DNA from: Chloroflexus aurantiacus J-10-fl
GTDB taxonomy: Bacteria > Chloroflexota > Chloroflexia > Chloroflexales > Chloroflexaceae
Direction: 5' to 3'
DNA length: 64,000 nt
NCBI RefSeq assembly: GCF_000018865.1
Contig: NC_010175.1
Span: 4,216,001-4,280,000 of the forward strand
Numbering within the stretch: position 1 is the stretch's first letter; the number at the start of each line of letters is the position of its first letter. Positions 9,394 to 34,447 of this stretch are shown here, one piece after another. Under the pieces are notes generated by a model. It saw only the letters and a program-made list of their open reading frames with translations, had not been told where the DNA came from and made no database searches. The translations under genes and the position numbers were made by a program.

Positions 9394-9712
9394 GGAACCT
9401 GCCCATTCCGTATAAAGCCGCCGATCTTCACGGATCGTTGCGAGTGGGACGGATAGTCACGGATCACCCCTTTTCTGCGCCCCGGATCAGCGTGTCGCCA
9501 GTGTGGAGTGCGGCAGCCATGCTGCCGCGCCGACCGTACTCCCCGCCCCCAACCGGCGCGCAGCGCCAGCATGGTGGGGATGACACCAAATCTGGTTTCA
9601 TAGAAGTCATAGATAGAAGTCATAGCAAGTTATCTGGAACTCGTTGGTGCGTCTCTGCTATCAAATCTGCTACAATCCAATTTGGCTTCCCGGTTCGCCG
9701 CATCGCTTGTAT
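9394..9712. other. Non-coding segment between two 58-bp direct repeats
   Basis: No credible gene is seen. It contains one copy of the dispersed hairpin core GCGGCAGC-CAT-GCTGCCGC (9510-9528), flanked by GGAGT and CGACCGTACTC as in other copies of the family seen near 14.1, 22.8, 23.0 and 32.8-34.4 kb. Confidence 0.6.
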
Positions 9713-14849: not shown

Positions 14850-16163
14850 GTGAGTGCAATGAAGCGTGCTTTGATTGCTCTGTTCCTCGCCGCCGCAATG
14901 ATTTTGGCGGCATGTGGTTCGAATCAGACGGCCACTCAGCCGACCACCGCTCCTGCCGAGCAGCCGACCACCGCTCCTGCCGAGCAGCCGACCACCGCTC
15001 CTGCCGAGCAGCCCACCACCGCACCCTCTGCTCAACAGGTTACCATTCGTATCTGGCATCAGTGGGATGGTGCGTATCTGACTGCGATTGAGCAGGCTTT
15101 CCGTGATTACGAAGCCGCCAATCCGAATGTCAAGATCGATCTCTCGAAGCCGGAAGATGTCAGCAATGCGTTGAATGTGGCGATTCCCGCCGGTGAAGGC
15201 CCCGATATTATCGGTTGGGCGAATGACCAGATCGGTCAGCAGGCACTGGTTGGCAACATCGTCGCGCTGAACGATTACGGCATCACCGAGGATTTCCTGC
15301 GCAGCACCTATGAGCCGGCTGCAGTCAATGGTGTGATCTGGCAGGGCAAGATTTGGGCATTGCCGGAGACCCAGGAAGGTATTGCTCTAATCTACAACAA
15401 GGCAGTCGTGGGCGATATGCAGTTGCCGACCAGCCTCGATGAGCTGTTGCAGATGGCGAAGGATTTCCGCGCTGCCAACCCTGACAAGACCTTCGTCTGC
15501 AACCAGGGCTTCGGTGGTAACGATGCGTACCACGTCGCTCCGATCTACTTCGGCTACGGTGTTCCGAGCTATGTTGACGATGAGGGCAATGTCTACGTTA
15601 ACACGCCGGAGATGATCAAGGGTGGCGAGTGGCTGGCCGAGATGAGCAAGGTCTCGTTCAGCGAGCAGAGCTACGACATCTGCAAGGCTGCTCTGGCTGA
15701 AGGCAAGGCGGCTATGTGGTGGACCGGCCCGTGGGCGATTGCCGGTATCGAGCAGGATGGTGTTGATTACGGCATTCTGCCGATGGGCAAGCCCTTCGTC
15801 GGTATCAAGACCCTGATGCTGACCCGCAATGCGGTTGAGCGCGGCAATGCTGAGGTGGCGCTCGATATTATGAAGTACTTCACCAGCGCCGAGGTGCAGG
15901 CGAAGCTGGCCTTGACCAACAAGACGGTGCCCGCAGCGACCGCAGCGCTCCAGAACCCCGAGGTCGCCGCGCTGCCCACGCTGGCCGGCTTTGGTGCCGC
16001 CCTTAATACGGGTGTGCCGATGGCCAACACCCCCTTCGCTTCGGCCCAGTGGGGTCCGGTCGGTGAGGCAAGCGTTGCCATCTGGACCGGTGCGCAGACG
16101 CCGGCTGAGGCGCTGGCCGCTGCCCAGCAGGCGATTGAAGCTGCGATTATGCAGATGAAGTAA
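14850..16163 (+). CDS. Sugar ABC transporter substrate-binding lipoprotein (MalE-like)
   Basis: A 437-residue extracellular solute-binding protein (SBP_bac_1/8, MalE class) that should deliver a sugar or maltodextrin to the permeases encoded next. GTG at 14850 is preferred because AAGGAG lies seven bases ahead; an in-frame ATG follows three codons later. The signal peptide ends in the lipobox LAAC (Cys22). A linker of TTAPAEQP octapeptide repeats separates the anchor from the binding domain, which starts at VTIRIWHQWDGAYL. The C-terminal EVALDIMKYFTSAEVQAKLA is typical of the class. A hairpin with four T residues follows the gene and probably lets only part of transcription reach the permeases, giving excess binding protein. 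Confidence 0.93.
   Translation: MSAMKRALIALFLAAAMILAACGSNQTATQPTTAPAEQPTTAPAEQPTTAPAEQPTTAPSAQQVTIRIWHQWDGAYLTAIEQAFRDYEAANPNVKIDLSKPEDVSNALNVAIPAGEGPDIIGWANDQIGQQALVGNIVALNDYGITEDFLRSTYEPAAVNGVIWQGKIWALPETQEGIALIYNKAVVGDMQLPTSLDELLQMAKDFRAANPDKTFVCNQGFGGNDAYHVAPIYFGYGVPSYVDDEGNVYVNTPEMIKGGEWLAEMSKVSFSEQSYDICKAALAEGKAAMWWTGPWAIAGIEQDGVDYGILPMGKPFVGIKTLMLTRNAVERGNAEVALDIMKYFTSAEVQAKLALTNKTVPAATAALQNPEVAALPTLAGFGAALNTGVPMANTPFASAQWGPVGEASVAIWTGAQTPAEALAAAQQAIEAAIMQMK
14937..15026 (+). repeat. In-frame 24-bp tandem repeat in the lipoprotein linker
   Basis: CAGCCGACCACCGCTCCTGC-CGAG occurs three times without change (14937, 14961, 14985), followed by a diverged partial copy. It encodes the QPTTAPAE linker and is a likely site of length variation. 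Confidence 0.95.
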
Positions 16164-24790: not shown

Positions 24791-25846
24791 TTACTGTTTT
24801 CCCGTCTCTTCGTCAACCACAATCACCCGCGTTGCCGCACGGCGCAGGCGATCCCGCAGGGCACGCCCCAGGCCGGCTTCGTCGAGATCGCGGGTAAACA
24901 TGCGATCGGGCTGGCGTTCGTCAAGCGCCCGCAGCGCGGCGTATAGCCGCCGGGCAATGATCGCCGGATCAGAAGTTGGGCCGAGCGATTCCCGCTCAAC
25001 TGGTAAGTCGTGCATCAGCGCGAGGTCTTCCTCTGGCAAAAGGAGACCAACGCGCAGTCCACGGGCCAGCGCTGCTTCGGTTTCGGCGCGTAGCCGGGCG
25101 AGAACCGAGTCCGGTTTGCCACTAAACAACCATAATTCGTGATCGGGGGCATAGTGGCGCTCCAGGAGACCGGGCGCGGTCAGGCCATGCGCTTCATCGG
25201 CGGTAGGTTGTGAACGGAGTTGCACCTCGCCGATCAGGTCGGTCAACGTTTCAAGGCTAATCCCGCCAGGGCGCAAAAGTGTCGGCGGATCGGTGGTGCA
25301 GTCGAGCACGGTTGACTCAATGCCAATCGGCGTCGCCCCACCATCAATCACCGCCGCGATCCGTCCATCGAGATCAGCCAGCACGTGATCGGCAGTGGTT
25401 GGACTGGTGTGTCCGAAGCGGTTGGCACTTGGTGCGGCAACCGGTACACCGGCAGCCCGCAGCAGCTCCTGGGCAATCGGATGTGAAGGTACCCGTACCG
25501 CGACCGTTTCACGTCCGGCAGTCACTGTCAACGGTACACGAGGATGGCGCGGTACGATCAGCGTGAGTGGGCCTGGCCAGCAGGCCGCTGCCAGCCTGCC
25601 GGCAAGTGGTGGAACTGTCGCAGCCACCAGTGGCAGATCGGTGGCTGCCGTGATGTGGACGATCAGCGGATCATTCGCCGGACGCCCCTTCGCGGTAAAA
25701 ATGGCCGCTACGGCACGCTCGTCGAGCGCATGCCCGCCTAGCCCGTAGACCGTTTCGGTCGGGAAGGCGACAAGTTCGCCACGCCGGAGGAGTTCGCCGG
25801 CCATGGCAATTGCAGCGGGTGAGGTGTCGAGCCGTTTGGTATGCAT
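24791..25846 (-). CDS. Threonylcarbamoyl-AMP synthase (TsaC/Sua5 family)
   Basis: A 351-residue enzyme that makes threonylcarbamoyl-adenylate from threonine, bicarbonate and ATP, for the t6A37 modification of tRNAs that read ANN codons. The N-terminal YrdC domain has AFPTETVYGLGGHAL and KGRPANDPLIVHI; VAAPSANRFGHTSPT is also diagnostic. The extra C-terminal domain after LLRPGGIS (about residues 220-350) makes it a Sua5-type rather than a short TsaC protein. The start ATG overlaps the stop of the PEP carboxylase gene by one base (TGATG), so the two are coupled. Confidence 0.95.
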   Translation of the reverse strand: MHTKRLDTSPAAIAMAGELLRRGELVAFPTETVYGLGGHALDERAVAAIFTAKGRPANDPLIVHITAATDLPLVAATVPPLAGRLAAACWPGPLTLIVPRHPRVPLTVTAGRETVAVRVPSHPIAQELLRAAGVPVAAPSANRFGHTSPTTADHVLADLDGRIAAVIDGGATPIGIESTVLDCTTDPPTLLRPGGISLETLTDLIGEVQLRSQPTADEAHGLTAPGLLERHYAPDHELWLFSGKPDSVLARLRAETEAALARGLRVGLLLPEEDLALMHDLPVERESLGPTSDPAIIARRLYAALRALDERQPDRMFTRDLDEAGLGRALRDRLRRAATRVIVVDEETGKQ

Positions 25847-28665
25847 CAGCCTGTATTCTTCAATCCGGCAGCAATGCCGTTGATTGACATCAACAAAACC
25901 GTTTCCAATTCGCCCTGTTCTTCGGGCGGCGCAGCGCGCAATCGGCGGAGCAGTTCAATCTGGACAAAGCTGAGTGGATCGATGTACGGGTTGCGCTGCC
26001 GAATCGCCCGCTGAAGTACCGGTTGATGGGCCAACAGATCGTTGCGTTCGGTGATCTGACAGATCATACGTTCGGTGCGGCGGAATTCGCTCTCGATCCG
26101 CTGAAAGATCCGTTCGGCCAGATGACGATCCGGCACCAGGCTGGCGTAAGCGCGGGCAATGTTCATATCGGCTTTCAGCATGATCATCTGCGCGTTATCC
26201 AGCAGCGTGCTGAAAAAGGGCCAGTGCTGGTACATGGTGCGCAATAGATGCAGGTGATGCGGATCGGCTTCCACAAATGCTTCCAGCGCACTGCCCAGGC
26301 CAAACCAGCCCGGAATCGTGTGCCGACTCTGCATCCAGCTAAAGACCCATGGAATGGCCCGCAGGTCTTCGATCCGATCACTCTTGCGGCGCGAGACCGG
26401 ACGTGAGCCGATGCGTAGCCGGTTGAATTCGGCCACCGGTGTGGCACTGCGAAAATAGATCAGAAAATCCGGGTCTTCGTAAACCAGTTGCCGGTAGACA
26501 GTACGTGCCGTAGTCGCCATCTCCTCCATCGCGGCCAGCCAGGTTGGTTCGGGCTGCCGCGCCATGCCGGGAAAGCCCGCCCGCAACACGGCATTAACCA
26601 CCTGTTCGAGGTGACGATGGGCAGTCCGCGGATCGAGATAACGGTCTGAGATCATTTCACCCTGGTCAGTAACCTTGATCTGACCGTGGAGGGTTCCGGG
26701 TGGTTGGGCGAGGATGGCCTGTCCGGCAGGGCCGCCACCGCGGCCAACAGCGCCACCGCGGCCAACAGCGCCACCGCGGCCATGGAAGAGGCGCAAGCGG
26801 ACGCCGTGCCGATCTGTGACCGCTGTCAGTTCCACCTGTGCCCGGTAGAGTGCCCAGTTTGCAGCCACAAAGCCACCCTCTTTGTTGCTGTCGGAATAAC
26901 CGAGCATCACCTCTTGCAGGTTGTCGCGTAGCGCCAGATGCTCACGGTACACCGGCAAGCGGAGCAGTTCATCCAGGAGCGCCGGTGCGCGTTGCAGGTC
27001 GTCACCCGTTTCAAACAGCGGCACAATATGCAACTGACTGGCCTGACCGGGCTGGTAGAGACCGGCATCGCGGCAGAGCAGCAACACTGCCAGCAGATCG
27101 CTGACCTGACTGGTGGTCGAGATGATGTACGTCTGAAAGATTTCTGGGTCGAGCTGTTCGCTGATTGCCGCTATGACCCGAAAGGTGTGAATGGTTTCCG
27201 CCGTCGCCGGACTGAAATGACTGAGTCGGCTGGGCGTGAGTGGGCGCGGTCGGCGAATTTCCACGCTCAACACCGCAATCCGCTCTGCCTCATCGAGCGC
27301 TTCGTAATCGTCGACCACACCAGCAGCGGCCAGGATTTCGCTCAGGGCTGCTGTGTGCCGGCTGGCGTGCTGGCGCACGTCGAGGGTGGCCGTGTGCAGA
27401 TGGCAAACTGCCACGAGCGTTCGTACATCGCGCAACAGACCCTCGGCGATTAACGTACTGCCGTTATTGCGCAGACTGGCATCGATCAGGTCGAGATCGG
27501 CTAAGAGTTCGCGGCTATGGTAGTAGATGTCGGGTCGCCGTGCGAGCGGTGGATCGATCCCCCAACGAGGCGTGTAGTCCAACGTGTACTGAAGGGTGTT
27601 GTGCAGCCGGGCCTGAATAAAATGGCACAACTGGCGGTATGGCTCGCAGCGGTAATGCGGGTTGAGCGTCGCTGCTGCATCTGGCATCAACTCGCGATAT
27701 TCGGCGATGCGATCAATGATCGCCGTATCCACCTTCACCTGCTGCACCGATTGGCTCAAATCGGTGATCAGCCGATCAAGGCAATCTATCAGATAACGCA
27801 GCATTGCGCTCCGCATCAGCCGTACCGTCTCGACCGTTACCTCTGGCGTCACGAAGGGATTGCCGTCGCGATCCCCGCCCATCCAGCTTCCAAAGCGCAG
27901 AAATGGCGGCAGACGCCAGGGGTGATCCGGATATGCTGCTTGCAGCGCATCACTCATCTCACGATAGATGTGCGGTAGGAGTTCCCAGAGGACGGTTTGA
28001 AAGAAGAACAGTCCATTCTCCACTTCGTCGAGCACCGATGGTCGCCGATTACGCACATCATCGCTCTGCCACAACCCGACGATCTCCCGCTCGATGCGGG
28101 TAAGCGCGGCCTGCCGGTCGGCAGGTAAGACCAACCGCTCTCCAAATGTCAAATCGACCAGCGTATCAAAAATGCGCCGCAGTTTAATCAGGATTGTGCG
28201 CCGGCGCGACTCGGTCGGGTGCGCCGTCAACACCGGCATAATCAGCGCGTGATCCAGCCATTCCTGGATCGCAGGTGCCGGTACTCCGTGACGCTTCAGC
28301 AATTCGATAGCGTCGGCAATACTCTCGGCACGGGGGGCGGGCGCATGGCGTAGATCGCGCGCCCGCAAAACGCGCAGACGTTCAACCCCTTCCGCCAGAT
28401 TGACCAATCCAAAATAGAGCGTGAATGCCTTGACCAGACTGCGTAATTGTGGCAAATCCAGATCGGCAATCAATTGGGGAAGTGCCTGTGGATCGGTGTT
28501 GGTTGGTGCATTGCGGAGGTCTTTAGCCATCCGGCGCACCTGTTCCACCAGTGCCAGTGCTTCGCTACCGTGTTGACCGATAATGACCCGGCCAAGTGCA
28601 TCGCCTAGTGCGCGAATGTTTGCCGATAACAGATCATGTTCGTTAGCAGTGGTTCGTCCGCTCAT
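25846..28665 (-). CDS. ppc: Phosphoenolpyruvate carboxylase with a duplicated catalytic loop segment
   Basis: A 939-residue cytoplasmic enzyme that forms oxaloacetate from PEP and bicarbonate. Active-site elements are present: VLTAHPTESRRRTI with the catalytic His, VMLGYSDSNKEGG, and the glycine-rich FHGRGG loop. That loop reads FHGRGGAVGRGGAVGRGGGP, with six residues more than the usual FHGRGG(S/T)(I/V)GRGG. MSGRTTANEH is chosen as start because it lies five bases after the stop of the preceding phosphatase gene; a reading 17 codons longer would overlap that gene. The enzyme supplies C4 acids for the TCA cycle and, in Chloroflexus-like organisms, complements the 3-hydroxypropionate bi-cycle. 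Confidence 0.95.
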   Translation of the reverse strand: MSGRTTANEHDLLSANIRALGDALGRVIIGQHGSEALALVEQVRRMAKDLRNAPTNTDPQALPQLIADLDLPQLRSLVKAFTLYFGLVNLAEGVERLRVLRARDLRHAPAPRAESIADAIELLKRHGVPAPAIQEWLDHALIMPVLTAHPTESRRRTILIKLRRIFDTLVDLTFGERLVLPADRQAALTRIEREIVGLWQSDDVRNRRPSVLDEVENGLFFFQTVLWELLPHIYREMSDALQAAYPDHPWRLPPFLRFGSWMGGDRDGNPFVTPEVTVETVRLMRSAMLRYLIDCLDRLITDLSQSVQQVKVDTAIIDRIAEYRELMPDAAATLNPHYRCEPYRQLCHFIQARLHNTLQYTLDYTPRWGIDPPLARRPDIYYHSRELLADLDLIDASLRNNGSTLIAEGLLRDVRTLVAVCHLHTATLDVRQHASRHTAALSEILAAAGVVDDYEALDEAERIAVLSVEIRRPRPLTPSRLSHFSPATAETIHTFRVIAAISEQLDPEIFQTYIISTTSQVSDLLAVLLLCRDAGLYQPGQASQLHIVPLFETGDDLQRAPALLDELLRLPVYREHLALRDNLQEVMLGYSDSNKEGGFVAANWALYRAQVELTAVTDRHGVRLRLFHGRGGAVGRGGAVGRGGGPAGQAILAQPPGTLHGQIKVTDQGEMISDRYLDPRTAHRHLEQVVNAVLRAGFPGMARQPEPTWLAAMEEMATTARTVYRQLVYEDPDFLIYFRSATPVAEFNRLRIGSRPVSRRKSDRIEDLRAIPWVFSWMQSRHTIPGWFGLGSALEAFVEADPHHLHLLRTMYQHWPFFSTLLDNAQMIMLKADMNIARAYASLVPDRHLAERIFQRIESEFRRTERMICQITERNDLLAHQPVLQRAIRQRNPYIDPLSFVQIELLRRLRAAPPEEQGELETVLLMSINGIAAGLKNTG
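26735..26781 (-). repeat. 18-bp tandem repeat inside ppc
   Basis: CCACCGCGGCCAACAGCG occurs at 26735-26752 and 26753-26770 without change, followed by 11 bases of a third copy. It encodes the repeated GRGGAV residues at about 628-645 of PEP carboxylase. Confidence 0.95.
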
Positions 28666-28669
28666 ACGT

Positions 28670-29299
28670 TTACTCGCCGCCTTCCGCCACCAGTTCCTCA
28701 AGGTGGGCGACATCATTCATCCGTAATAGCCGCCAGCCACTTCGCCCGCGGACGATTTCGCTCAACGAACCATTGTCGAGCCACAATTTGCTAAAGTTTG
28801 CCAGATCGAGACCGATGATGTGACAGAACAAGGCGCGGATGGAGCCGCCATGCGAAACCACGATAATCGTCTCACCATTGCGGTGAGCGGCCTCGATCCG
28901 GGCAAACGCCCGCAGCACCCTTGCTTGCAATTGGGCATAACTTTCGCCGCCGAGACGCACAGTTCGTGCCGGGTCGCGGTCGTATTCGCGCATATGGTCG
29001 GGGAAGCGCTGATAGAGTTCGTCGGGGGTTAGCCCTTCCCATAACCCGACATCAATCTCGCGCAAATCCGGCATAGCAACCGGTTGCAGATTGACGTGTG
29101 ACCCAATAATCTCGGCTGTCTCCCATGCGCGGGGCAGATCGCTACTGTACAGAGCAACTGCCCCGCTCCGAACCAATCGTATCCCTGCCCGTCGGGCCTG
29201 TTCGCGCCCACGCTCGTTGAGCGGTATCGGCGCGTGACCCTGGTACTGTAACGTTTGATTCCACGGCGTCTCGCCGTGTCGCACAAGAATGAGACGCAT
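28670..29299 (-). CDS. Histidine phosphatase family protein (GpmB/CobC-like)
   Basis: A 209-residue phosphatase of the phosphoglycerate-mutase superfamily. The catalytic RHG motif appears as LVRHGETPWN (Arg7-His8-Gly9), the second catalytic histidine as VSHGGSIRALF, and the acid region as REIDVGLWEGLTPDELYQRF. Members range from phosphoglycerate mutase-like to alpha-ribazole phosphatase; the substrate cannot be fixed from sequence. It lies between the acyl-CoA dehydrogenase (39 bases upstream) and PEP carboxylase (5 bases downstream), so it belongs to the same minus-strand operon. Confidence 0.88.
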   Translation of the reverse strand: MRLILVRHGETPWNQTLQYQGHAPIPLNERGREQARRAGIRLVRSGAVALYSSDLPRAWETAEIIGSHVNLQPVAMPDLREIDVGLWEGLTPDELYQRFPDHMREYDRDPARTVRLGGESYAQLQARVLRAFARIEAAHRNGETIIVVSHGGSIRALFCHIIGLDLANFSKLWLDNGSLSEIVRGRSGWRLLRMNDVAHLEELVAEGGE

Positions 29300-32749: not shown

Positions 32750-34419
32750 ACGTACTGGCGTGGATACAGCTTCCCGACCGGATTGCCCGTGTTGCAGCGT
32801 TTGGAGTGCGGCAGCCACGCTGCCGCGCCAACCGTCCTCTTGCCCAGGCGCGTGGTGCAGCGCATACCCATACCAATCCGCACCCCTGCTGACCGAAATG
32901 CACGAGCGCGGACTGGCGACCTTTTCCCGCTCACACCGTAGAATCACCGCTGGCGTGGATACAGCTTCCCGACCAGGTTGCCCGTGTCGCGAGTTTGGAG
33001 TGCGGCAGCCACGCTGCCGCGCCAACCGTCCTCTTGCCCAGGCGCGTGGTGCAGCGCATACCCATACCAATCCGCACCCCTGCTGACCGAAATGCACGAG
33101 CGCGGACTGGCGACCTTTTCCCGCTCACACCGTAGAATCACCCGCTGGCGTGGATACAGCTTCCCGACCAGGTTGCCCGTGTCGCGAGTTTGGAGTGCGG
33201 CAGCCATGCTGCCGCACAGCCGTCCTCTTGCGCAGACGCGGGTCGCAGCGCGTACCCATACCGATCCGCACCCCTGCTGACCGAAATGCACGAGCGCGGA
33301 CTGGCGACCTTTTCCCGCTCACACCGTAGAATCACCCGCTGGCGTGGATACAGCTTCCCGACCAGGTTGCCCGTGTTGCAGCGTTTGGAGTGCGGCAGCC
33401 ATGCTGCCGCACAGCCGTACTCTTGCGCAAACGCGGGTCGCAGCGCATACCCATACCAATCCGCCCCCCTGCTGACCGAAATGCACGAGCGCGGACTGGC
33501 GACCTTTTCCCGCTTACACCGTAGAATCACCCGCTGGTGTGGATGCAGCTTCCCGACCAGGTTGCCCGTGTCGCGAGTTTGGAGTGCGGCAGCCATGCTG
33601 CCGCACAGCCGTACTCTTGCGCAAACGCGGGTCGCAGCGCGTACCCATACCAATCCGCCCCCCTGCTGACCGAAATGCACGAGCGCGGACTGGCGACCTT
33701 TTCCCGCTTACACCGTAGAATCACCCGCTGGCGTGGATACAGCTTCCCGACCAGGTTGCCCGTGTCGCGAGTTTGGAGTGCGGCAGCCATGCTGCCGCAC
33801 CGCCATCCTCTTGCCCAGGCGCGTGGTGCAGCGCATACCCATACCGATCCGCCCCACTGCTGACCGAAATGCACGAATACAGGCCAACAGCCTTTCGCTG
33901 CCCACACCGTAGGAACACCCGCTGGTGTGGATGCAGCTTCCCGACCAGGTTGCCCGTGTCGCGAGTTTGGAGTGCGGCAGCCATGCTGCCGCACAGCCGT
34001 CCTCTTGCGCAGACGCGGGTCGCAGCGCGTACCCATACCGATCCGCCCCCCTGCTGACCGAAATGCACGAGCGCGGACTGGCGACCTTTTCCCGCTCACA
34101 CCGTAGAATCACCCGCTGGCGTGGATACAGCTTCCCGACCAGGTTGCCCGTGTCGCGAGTTTGGAGTGCGGCAGCCACGCTGCCGCGCCAACCATCCTCT
34201 TGCCCAGGCGCGTGGTGCAGCGCATACCCATACCGATCCGCCCCACTGCTGACCGAAATGCACGAGCGCGGACTGGCGACCTTTTCCCGCTCACACCGTA
34301 GAATCACCCGCTGGCGTGGATACAGCTTCCCGACCAGGTTGCCCGTGTTGCAGCGTTTGGAGTGCGGCAGCCATGCTGCCGCACAGCCGTCCTCTTGCGC
34401 AGACGCGGGTTGCAGCGCA
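32750..34419. repeat. Tandem array of a 194-195 bp unit (8 full copies plus a partial)
   Basis: Taking TGGATACAGC/TGGATGCAGC as the phase marker, units begin at 32761, 32956, 33151, 33345, 33540, 33734, 33928, 34122 and 34317, a constant 194-195 bp spacing. Each unit has the hairpin core GCGGCAGC-CAT/CAC-GCTGCCGC, a TGCAGCGCATACCCATACC-like stretch and ACCGAAATGCACGAGCGCGG. The last copy stops at about 34419 and abuts a palindrome. Apparent long readings run through the array on both strands, but they change frame with the 194/195 period, lack ribosome sites and look like no protein, so it is judged non-coding. Confidence 0.95.
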
Positions 34420-34447
34420 GTAGGGGCGACGCATGCGTCGCCCCTAC
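34420..34447. repeat. Perfect 28-bp GTAGGGGC palindrome
   Basis: GTAGGGGCGACGCA followed by its exact complement TGCGTCGCCCCTAC. It lies at the junction between the 194-bp array and the 3' end of the pucC gene and may end transcription of either. Confidence 0.9.

Follow-up and report, generated by a model that had tools for sequence, protein, structure and literature searches.

An apparently private, recent in-frame duplication lengthens the active-site loop of one of two phosphoenolpyruvate carboxylases in Chloroflexus aurantiacus

Phosphoenolpyruvate carboxylases (PEPCs) usually carry one GRGGxx unit and then GRGGGP after a catalytic histidine, i.e. two GRGG motifs, whereas a ppc gene in the 64-kb stretch of C. 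aurantiacus DNA analysed here (the window) encodes three. This raises the questions of whether the third motif is real, how it arose and what it means for the enzyme of a hot-spring photosynthetic bacterium that is presumably a model organism of the 3-hydroxypropionate bicycle. The gene occupies a minus-strand open reading frame (ORF; 25846–28716, 956 residues), which was assigned as ppc from NF000584, PF00311 and the starts of its relatives. Its identity as a PEPC, first proposed from the letters of the sequence, is borne out by full-length matches above the curated cut-offs of both the NF000584 equivalog (987.5 bits, cut-off 815, model positions 1–898) and PF00311 (1045.1 bits, cut-off 22.4, model positions 1–919). 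Both catalytic histidines are present: the counterpart of E. coli His138 is His166 in the motif TAHPTE (28219–28221, minus strand), and that of His579 is His645 (26782–26784, minus strand), the coordinates being computed from the ORF start. The last residue, Gly956 (25849–25851, minus strand, likewise computed from the ORF), is invariant across 37 aligned sequences, and across the 36 that remain when the window protein is set aside. ORF residues 1–17 (28666–28716) probably lie outside the conserved protein; the relatives begin at MSGRTT, which corresponds to residue 18, so the true start of the window gene may be Met18. Matches in two congeners (G004 and G006) do reach residue 2, and a TAG stop lies inside those matches. 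The available part of the genome paper describes a 5.3-Mb genome with two ppc genes, Caur_3161 and Caur_3888 (PMC3150298); gene order would make the window gene Caur_3161. In the related C. aggregans, ppc transcripts are reported for the daytime in the part of the study available (PMC8004040).

After His645 the window PEPC reads GRGGAV-GRGGAV-GRGGGP, within a translated context of RLRLFHGRGGAVGRGGAVGRGGGPAGQ, and the six-residue in-frame insertion described in the original prediction is read directly in the translation of the 956-residue ORF. The underlying DNA is an exact tandem repeat, as had been claimed: Tandem Repeats Finder reports a period of 18, 2.8 copies and 100% matches (26733–26782), and the codon-aligned repeat is perfect over 2.7 copies of 18 bp (26734–26781), which upholds the end of the interval first given (26735–26781) and moves its start by one base. 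On the minus strand, unit 1 (18 bp, 26764–26781, GRGGAV, residues 646–651) was read directly, and the coordinates of unit 2 (18 bp, 26746–26763, GRGGAV, residues 652–657) and of a partial third unit (12 bp, 26734–26745, GRGG, residues 658–661, then GP) follow from it. Given the amino acids, and a codon usage taken from five window genes (ppc and four neighbors), the probability that the copies agree by chance at every synonymous codon is about 1e-5; the identity of the copies at the DNA level is therefore not explained by codon bias.

The short loop is found in the PEPC of all seven other Chloroflexus genomes compared, and the DNA match of each of these congeners is 18 bases shorter than the window query. 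At the protein level the congener PEPCs (L003–L009 and L032–L036, some of which are probably the same genomes from two collections) are 84–90% identical to the window PEPC, have identical residues flanking the loop, and all carry the short form FHGRGGAVGRGGGP. An insertion spread through the family, which the original prediction had named as an outcome that would count against it, is not what the relatives carry: those whose loops were read (L047, L064 and L072 were not among them) have the short loop, and these readings, together with the match lengths, rule out a genus- or family-wide trait.

Loop length was then surveyed more widely, with rows 18 bp short judged by match length save at loci whose loop was read. 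The loop and its surroundings, a 121-residue segment, were compared with 400 Chloroflexota genomes, 198 of which matched; among the matches listed (150 rows), 148 fall exactly 18 bp short, the window alone covers the full length, and one row 21 bp short (G213) proved to have a normal loop when read. In the phylum of an Acidithiobacillus locus (L045; by inference Pseudomonadota), 118 of 299 genomes matched and 109 of 121 rows are 18 bp short; ten further rows of other match lengths were read and have loops of normal length, two short, weak rows (G726 and the second match of G625) being left out. Since all 11 of these odd-length segments (G213 and the ten) have normal loops, their length differences lie outside the loop. 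In the phylum of a Bacillus sp. locus (L040; by inference Bacillota), 13 of 299 genomes matched, with eight rows at −18 bp and five at −15 bp; one of the latter (G885) has a normal loop and the other four carry FHGRGTSTARGGGGTAGRAI. Seven further named-record genomes contributed eight rows, all 18 bp short (by subtraction). No second case of the insertion was found in Chloroflexota and the two further phyla sampled (Cyanobacteriota and Actinomycetota lie outside this sample), mostly on the evidence of match length, and a scan of the first 72 loci for three spaced GRGG-like motifs returned only the window's own. The 12 PEPC sequences in the PDB listing give matches each six residues shorter than the query, and in the alignments displayed (five of the 12) the gap falls within the loop. 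Among the relatives sampled, and with one assembly of the species, the insertion is apparently private to the window gene.

The FHGRGTSTARGGGGTAGRAI PEPCs, from four of the 13 matching genomes of the L040 phylum, have at the equivalent site a core of normal length made of other residues, and their one extra residue of match seems to fall just past this core. Four PEPC genes (L125–L128) have FHGRGTSTARGGGGTAGRAI in place of GRGGxxGRGG and represent an alternative loop form that occurs in nature. Comparison of these genes shows, at the level of sequence, that the loop's own residues can vary.

In E. coli PEPC (1fiy/1jqn), His579, Arg581 and Arg587 lie in FHGRGGSIGRGGAP, at the place equivalent to the window loop. 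The two enzymes are alike in the counterparts of His138 and His579, in the GRGG arginines, in the C-terminal glycine and in predicted fold, but the window PEPC has three GRGG motifs, not two, after the catalytic histidine, and six more residues. When Arg587 of E. coli PEPC is replaced, hydrolysis of PEP persists and carboxylation is lost. The arginines of the window loop are Arg647, Arg653 and Arg659, and the exactness of the repeat makes their register relative to Arg587 unreadable. Maize PEPC has an arginine of its own at position 647, which we take, from the maize numbering, to be the second GRGG arginine. In the parts of the respective papers available, His138, His579 and Arg587 of the E. 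coli enzyme are described as important for catalysis with reference to mutagenesis papers (PMC11832675), and maize Arg647 is reported as the pairing partner of the C-terminal carboxylate (PMC6521631) and listed as an aspartate-binding residue (PMC7569800). A search of open-licence papers found no loop insertion, tandem duplication or special form, and nothing relevant on the Arabidopsis A651V variant; the insertion goes unmentioned in the available portions of six papers (PMC3150298, PMC11832675, PMC6521631, PMC7569800, PMC8004040 and PMC3521007).

Structure prediction suggests that the fold tolerates the extra residues. Alignments for this purpose covered 36 of 41 loci (L047, L058, L059, L064 and L072 were left out), and with these 36 relatives AlphaFold2 modeled the window PEPC with a pLDDT of 88.3 and a pTM of 0.88; the C. 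islandicus PEPC, a control with a normal loop, reached 90.9 and 0.90. The window model superimposes on maize PEPC 5vyj (Z 40.0, rmsd 2.2, 878 residues) and on E. coli 1jqn (Z 38.4, rmsd 2.5, 856 residues), and against the 23 listed PEPC entries from plants and E. coli its Z scores range from 37.1 to 40.0; the barrel of the window PEPC is thus predicted to be intact. Within the loop itself the pLDDT falls below 50 in the window model (648–661) and in the control (631–638) alike, so poor order is predicted for the loop whether or not it carries the insertion. The control loop (631–638) has a short helix of low confidence that is missing from the window model, while the flanking strand and the next helix are kept. 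Beside the conserved GGDRDGNP, residues 281–290 have a block mean pLDDT of 59 in the window model compared with 88 and 94 in the control blocks, which may be a weak hint of a disturbance in the window protein.

The normal gene appears to provide ready material for such a duplication. Of 83 distinct PEPC loop contexts, 12 (the window among them) have two identical GRGG-coding 12-mers 18 bp apart, and in another 21 the pair has a single mismatch; sequences on which slippage or unequal exchange could act are thus common. Slippage between two similar 12-bp GRGG stretches of the normal gene is the likely origin: 18 bp would have been duplicated in frame by replication slippage, or by unequal exchange, between these stretches. 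The event seems recent, as had been proposed from the exactness of the copies. Their 16 four-fold codons hold zero synonymous differences, for which a simple Poisson estimate gives a ceiling of ~0.19 substitutions per site, a soft one because repeated slippage could keep the copies alike, against a dS of 1.36 between the window ppc and its closest congener.

The second PEPC of the genome (G000:C1:5197997-5200663) is 37% identical to the window PEPC and has a loop of normal length, FHGRGGTISRGAGP; the two genes lie at 4.24 and 5.20 Mb. Its presence weakens the case for a physiological consequence of the insertion, for which the original prediction had proposed changed kinetics or regulation, or instability. 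Two PEPC matches were found in all eight Chloroflexus genomes, the loop of the second gene being fully read in the window genome only. PEPC activity in C. aurantiacus extracts is mentioned in the available part of the genome paper as unpublished work that does not tell the two genes apart (PMC3150298).

Taken as a whole, these observations are probably best explained by a recent duplication that is tolerated in an enzyme which is redundant, still folds and is somewhat impaired. In one of the two PEPCs, the duplication lengthens the glycine-rich loop at the active site; the barrel would still fold with the catalytic histidines in place, and either Arg653 or Arg659, the duplicated arginines, could occupy the position of Arg587. 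The longer loop probably closes less well, leaving the PEPC modestly impaired or altered, and the cell would tolerate this thanks to its second PEPC, whose loop is of normal length. The most likely state is an enzyme that is folded and still partly active, in which one of the duplicated arginines is in place and the loop closes less efficiently.

A more severe outcome, in which the insertion abolishes carboxylation, the gene is entering decay and the other PEPC does all the work, is in our view rather unlikely. Loop length is nearly constant in the samples, from which it can be argued that six extra residues cost function, perhaps all of it; the counterpart of Arg587 is displaced or ambiguous, and the two PEPC genes found throughout the genus would permit such a loss. 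However, the reading frame is intact, the loop still offers three arginines, the window protein keeps every column that is invariant in the 36 relatives, and dN/dS is about 0.05. In a comparison of the window with 10 loci, dN/dS against the seven congeners is 0.046–0.061, compared with 0.039–0.076 for pairs of congeners, values that record the gene's past and are blind to a very recent loss. Private protein changes, counted for the window and its closest congener, number 38 and 27 with L009 as reference and 30 and 35 with L008 (both references being congeners), and 19 and 19 (L010), 21 and 20 (L012) and 20 and 22 (L016) with the others. This comparison was also searched for signs of gene decay, namely an elevated dN/dS or rates that differ consistently, and neither was found. 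The extract activity noted above, unpublished and with the genes not separated, also speaks against decay (PMC3150298, available part).

There is a slim likelihood that the repeat is a cloning or assembly artefact, or a change that became fixed in the sequenced laboratory culture alone. One assembly represents the species, the repeat is GC-rich with CCGCGG palindromes, and the genome sequence came from clone libraries of 8 and 14 kb (PMC3150298, available part). Against this, the same source gives 58,246 reads at ten-fold coverage of a 5.3-Mb genome, from which we calculate reads of ~900 bases, far longer than the 48-bp repeat; it also states a final coverage of 11-fold and fewer than 1 error in 100,000 (PMC3150298, available part). 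A special hairpin was sought at the repeat and not found, the folding energy of the strand being unremarkable (z −1.14, equalled by 21 of 200 shuffles). An artefact within the 48-bp repeat is unlikely.

It is improbable that the extension is adaptive, tuning affinity, effector response or thermal behavior in this lineage. The change is confined to the active-site loop, and a longer loop could alter contacts of the kind described for maize Arg647 with the C-terminal carboxylate (PMC6521631) and aspartate (PMC7569800), as far as the available parts of those papers go; however, it is found in one genome only, and selection on the remaining protein gives no sign of change. The broader proposal that the doubled GRGGAV is functional, with loop length deciding how carboxylation is weighed against effector response and with a copy number reversible by slippage, appears very improbable. 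A reversible in-frame switch, by which slippage would vary cells between one and two units, is scarcely credible: the repeat is perfect and in frame, and the frame would be open in both states, but there are just 2.7 copies and none of the seven congeneric genomes has the second unit.

The window gene, read as a tolerated duplication, is a real, young variant of a known enzyme, private as far as sampled. It would be a natural loop-length mutant, for which the comparisons made here lend no support to an adaptive role. As the length of the loop after the catalytic histidine hardly varies in the PEPCs sampled, a natural variant with six additional residues amounts to a ready-made experiment, and setting the one-unit form against the two-unit form would reveal to what extent carboxylation is limited by loop closure. 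Otherwise, the finding is of a single, apparently private mutation affecting a housekeeping function that is duplicated.

The window holds other repeats. A 24-bp tandem repeat (14937–15022) has 3.6 copies with 98% matches. An array at 32755–34419 comprises ~8.6 copies of a 194-bp unit (92% matches), and a perfect 14-bp inverted repeat with no spacer (34420–34447) abuts its end. The 194-bp unit contains a hairpin-like motif, GCGGCAGCC-N2-GCTGCCGC, which also occurs elsewhere, at 9510, 14145, 23019 (with one mismatch), 56739 and 56865. Counting both strands, the motif has 27 matches at 14 places where 0 are expected and, given its occurrence beyond the array, is probably a dispersed repeat of the genome.
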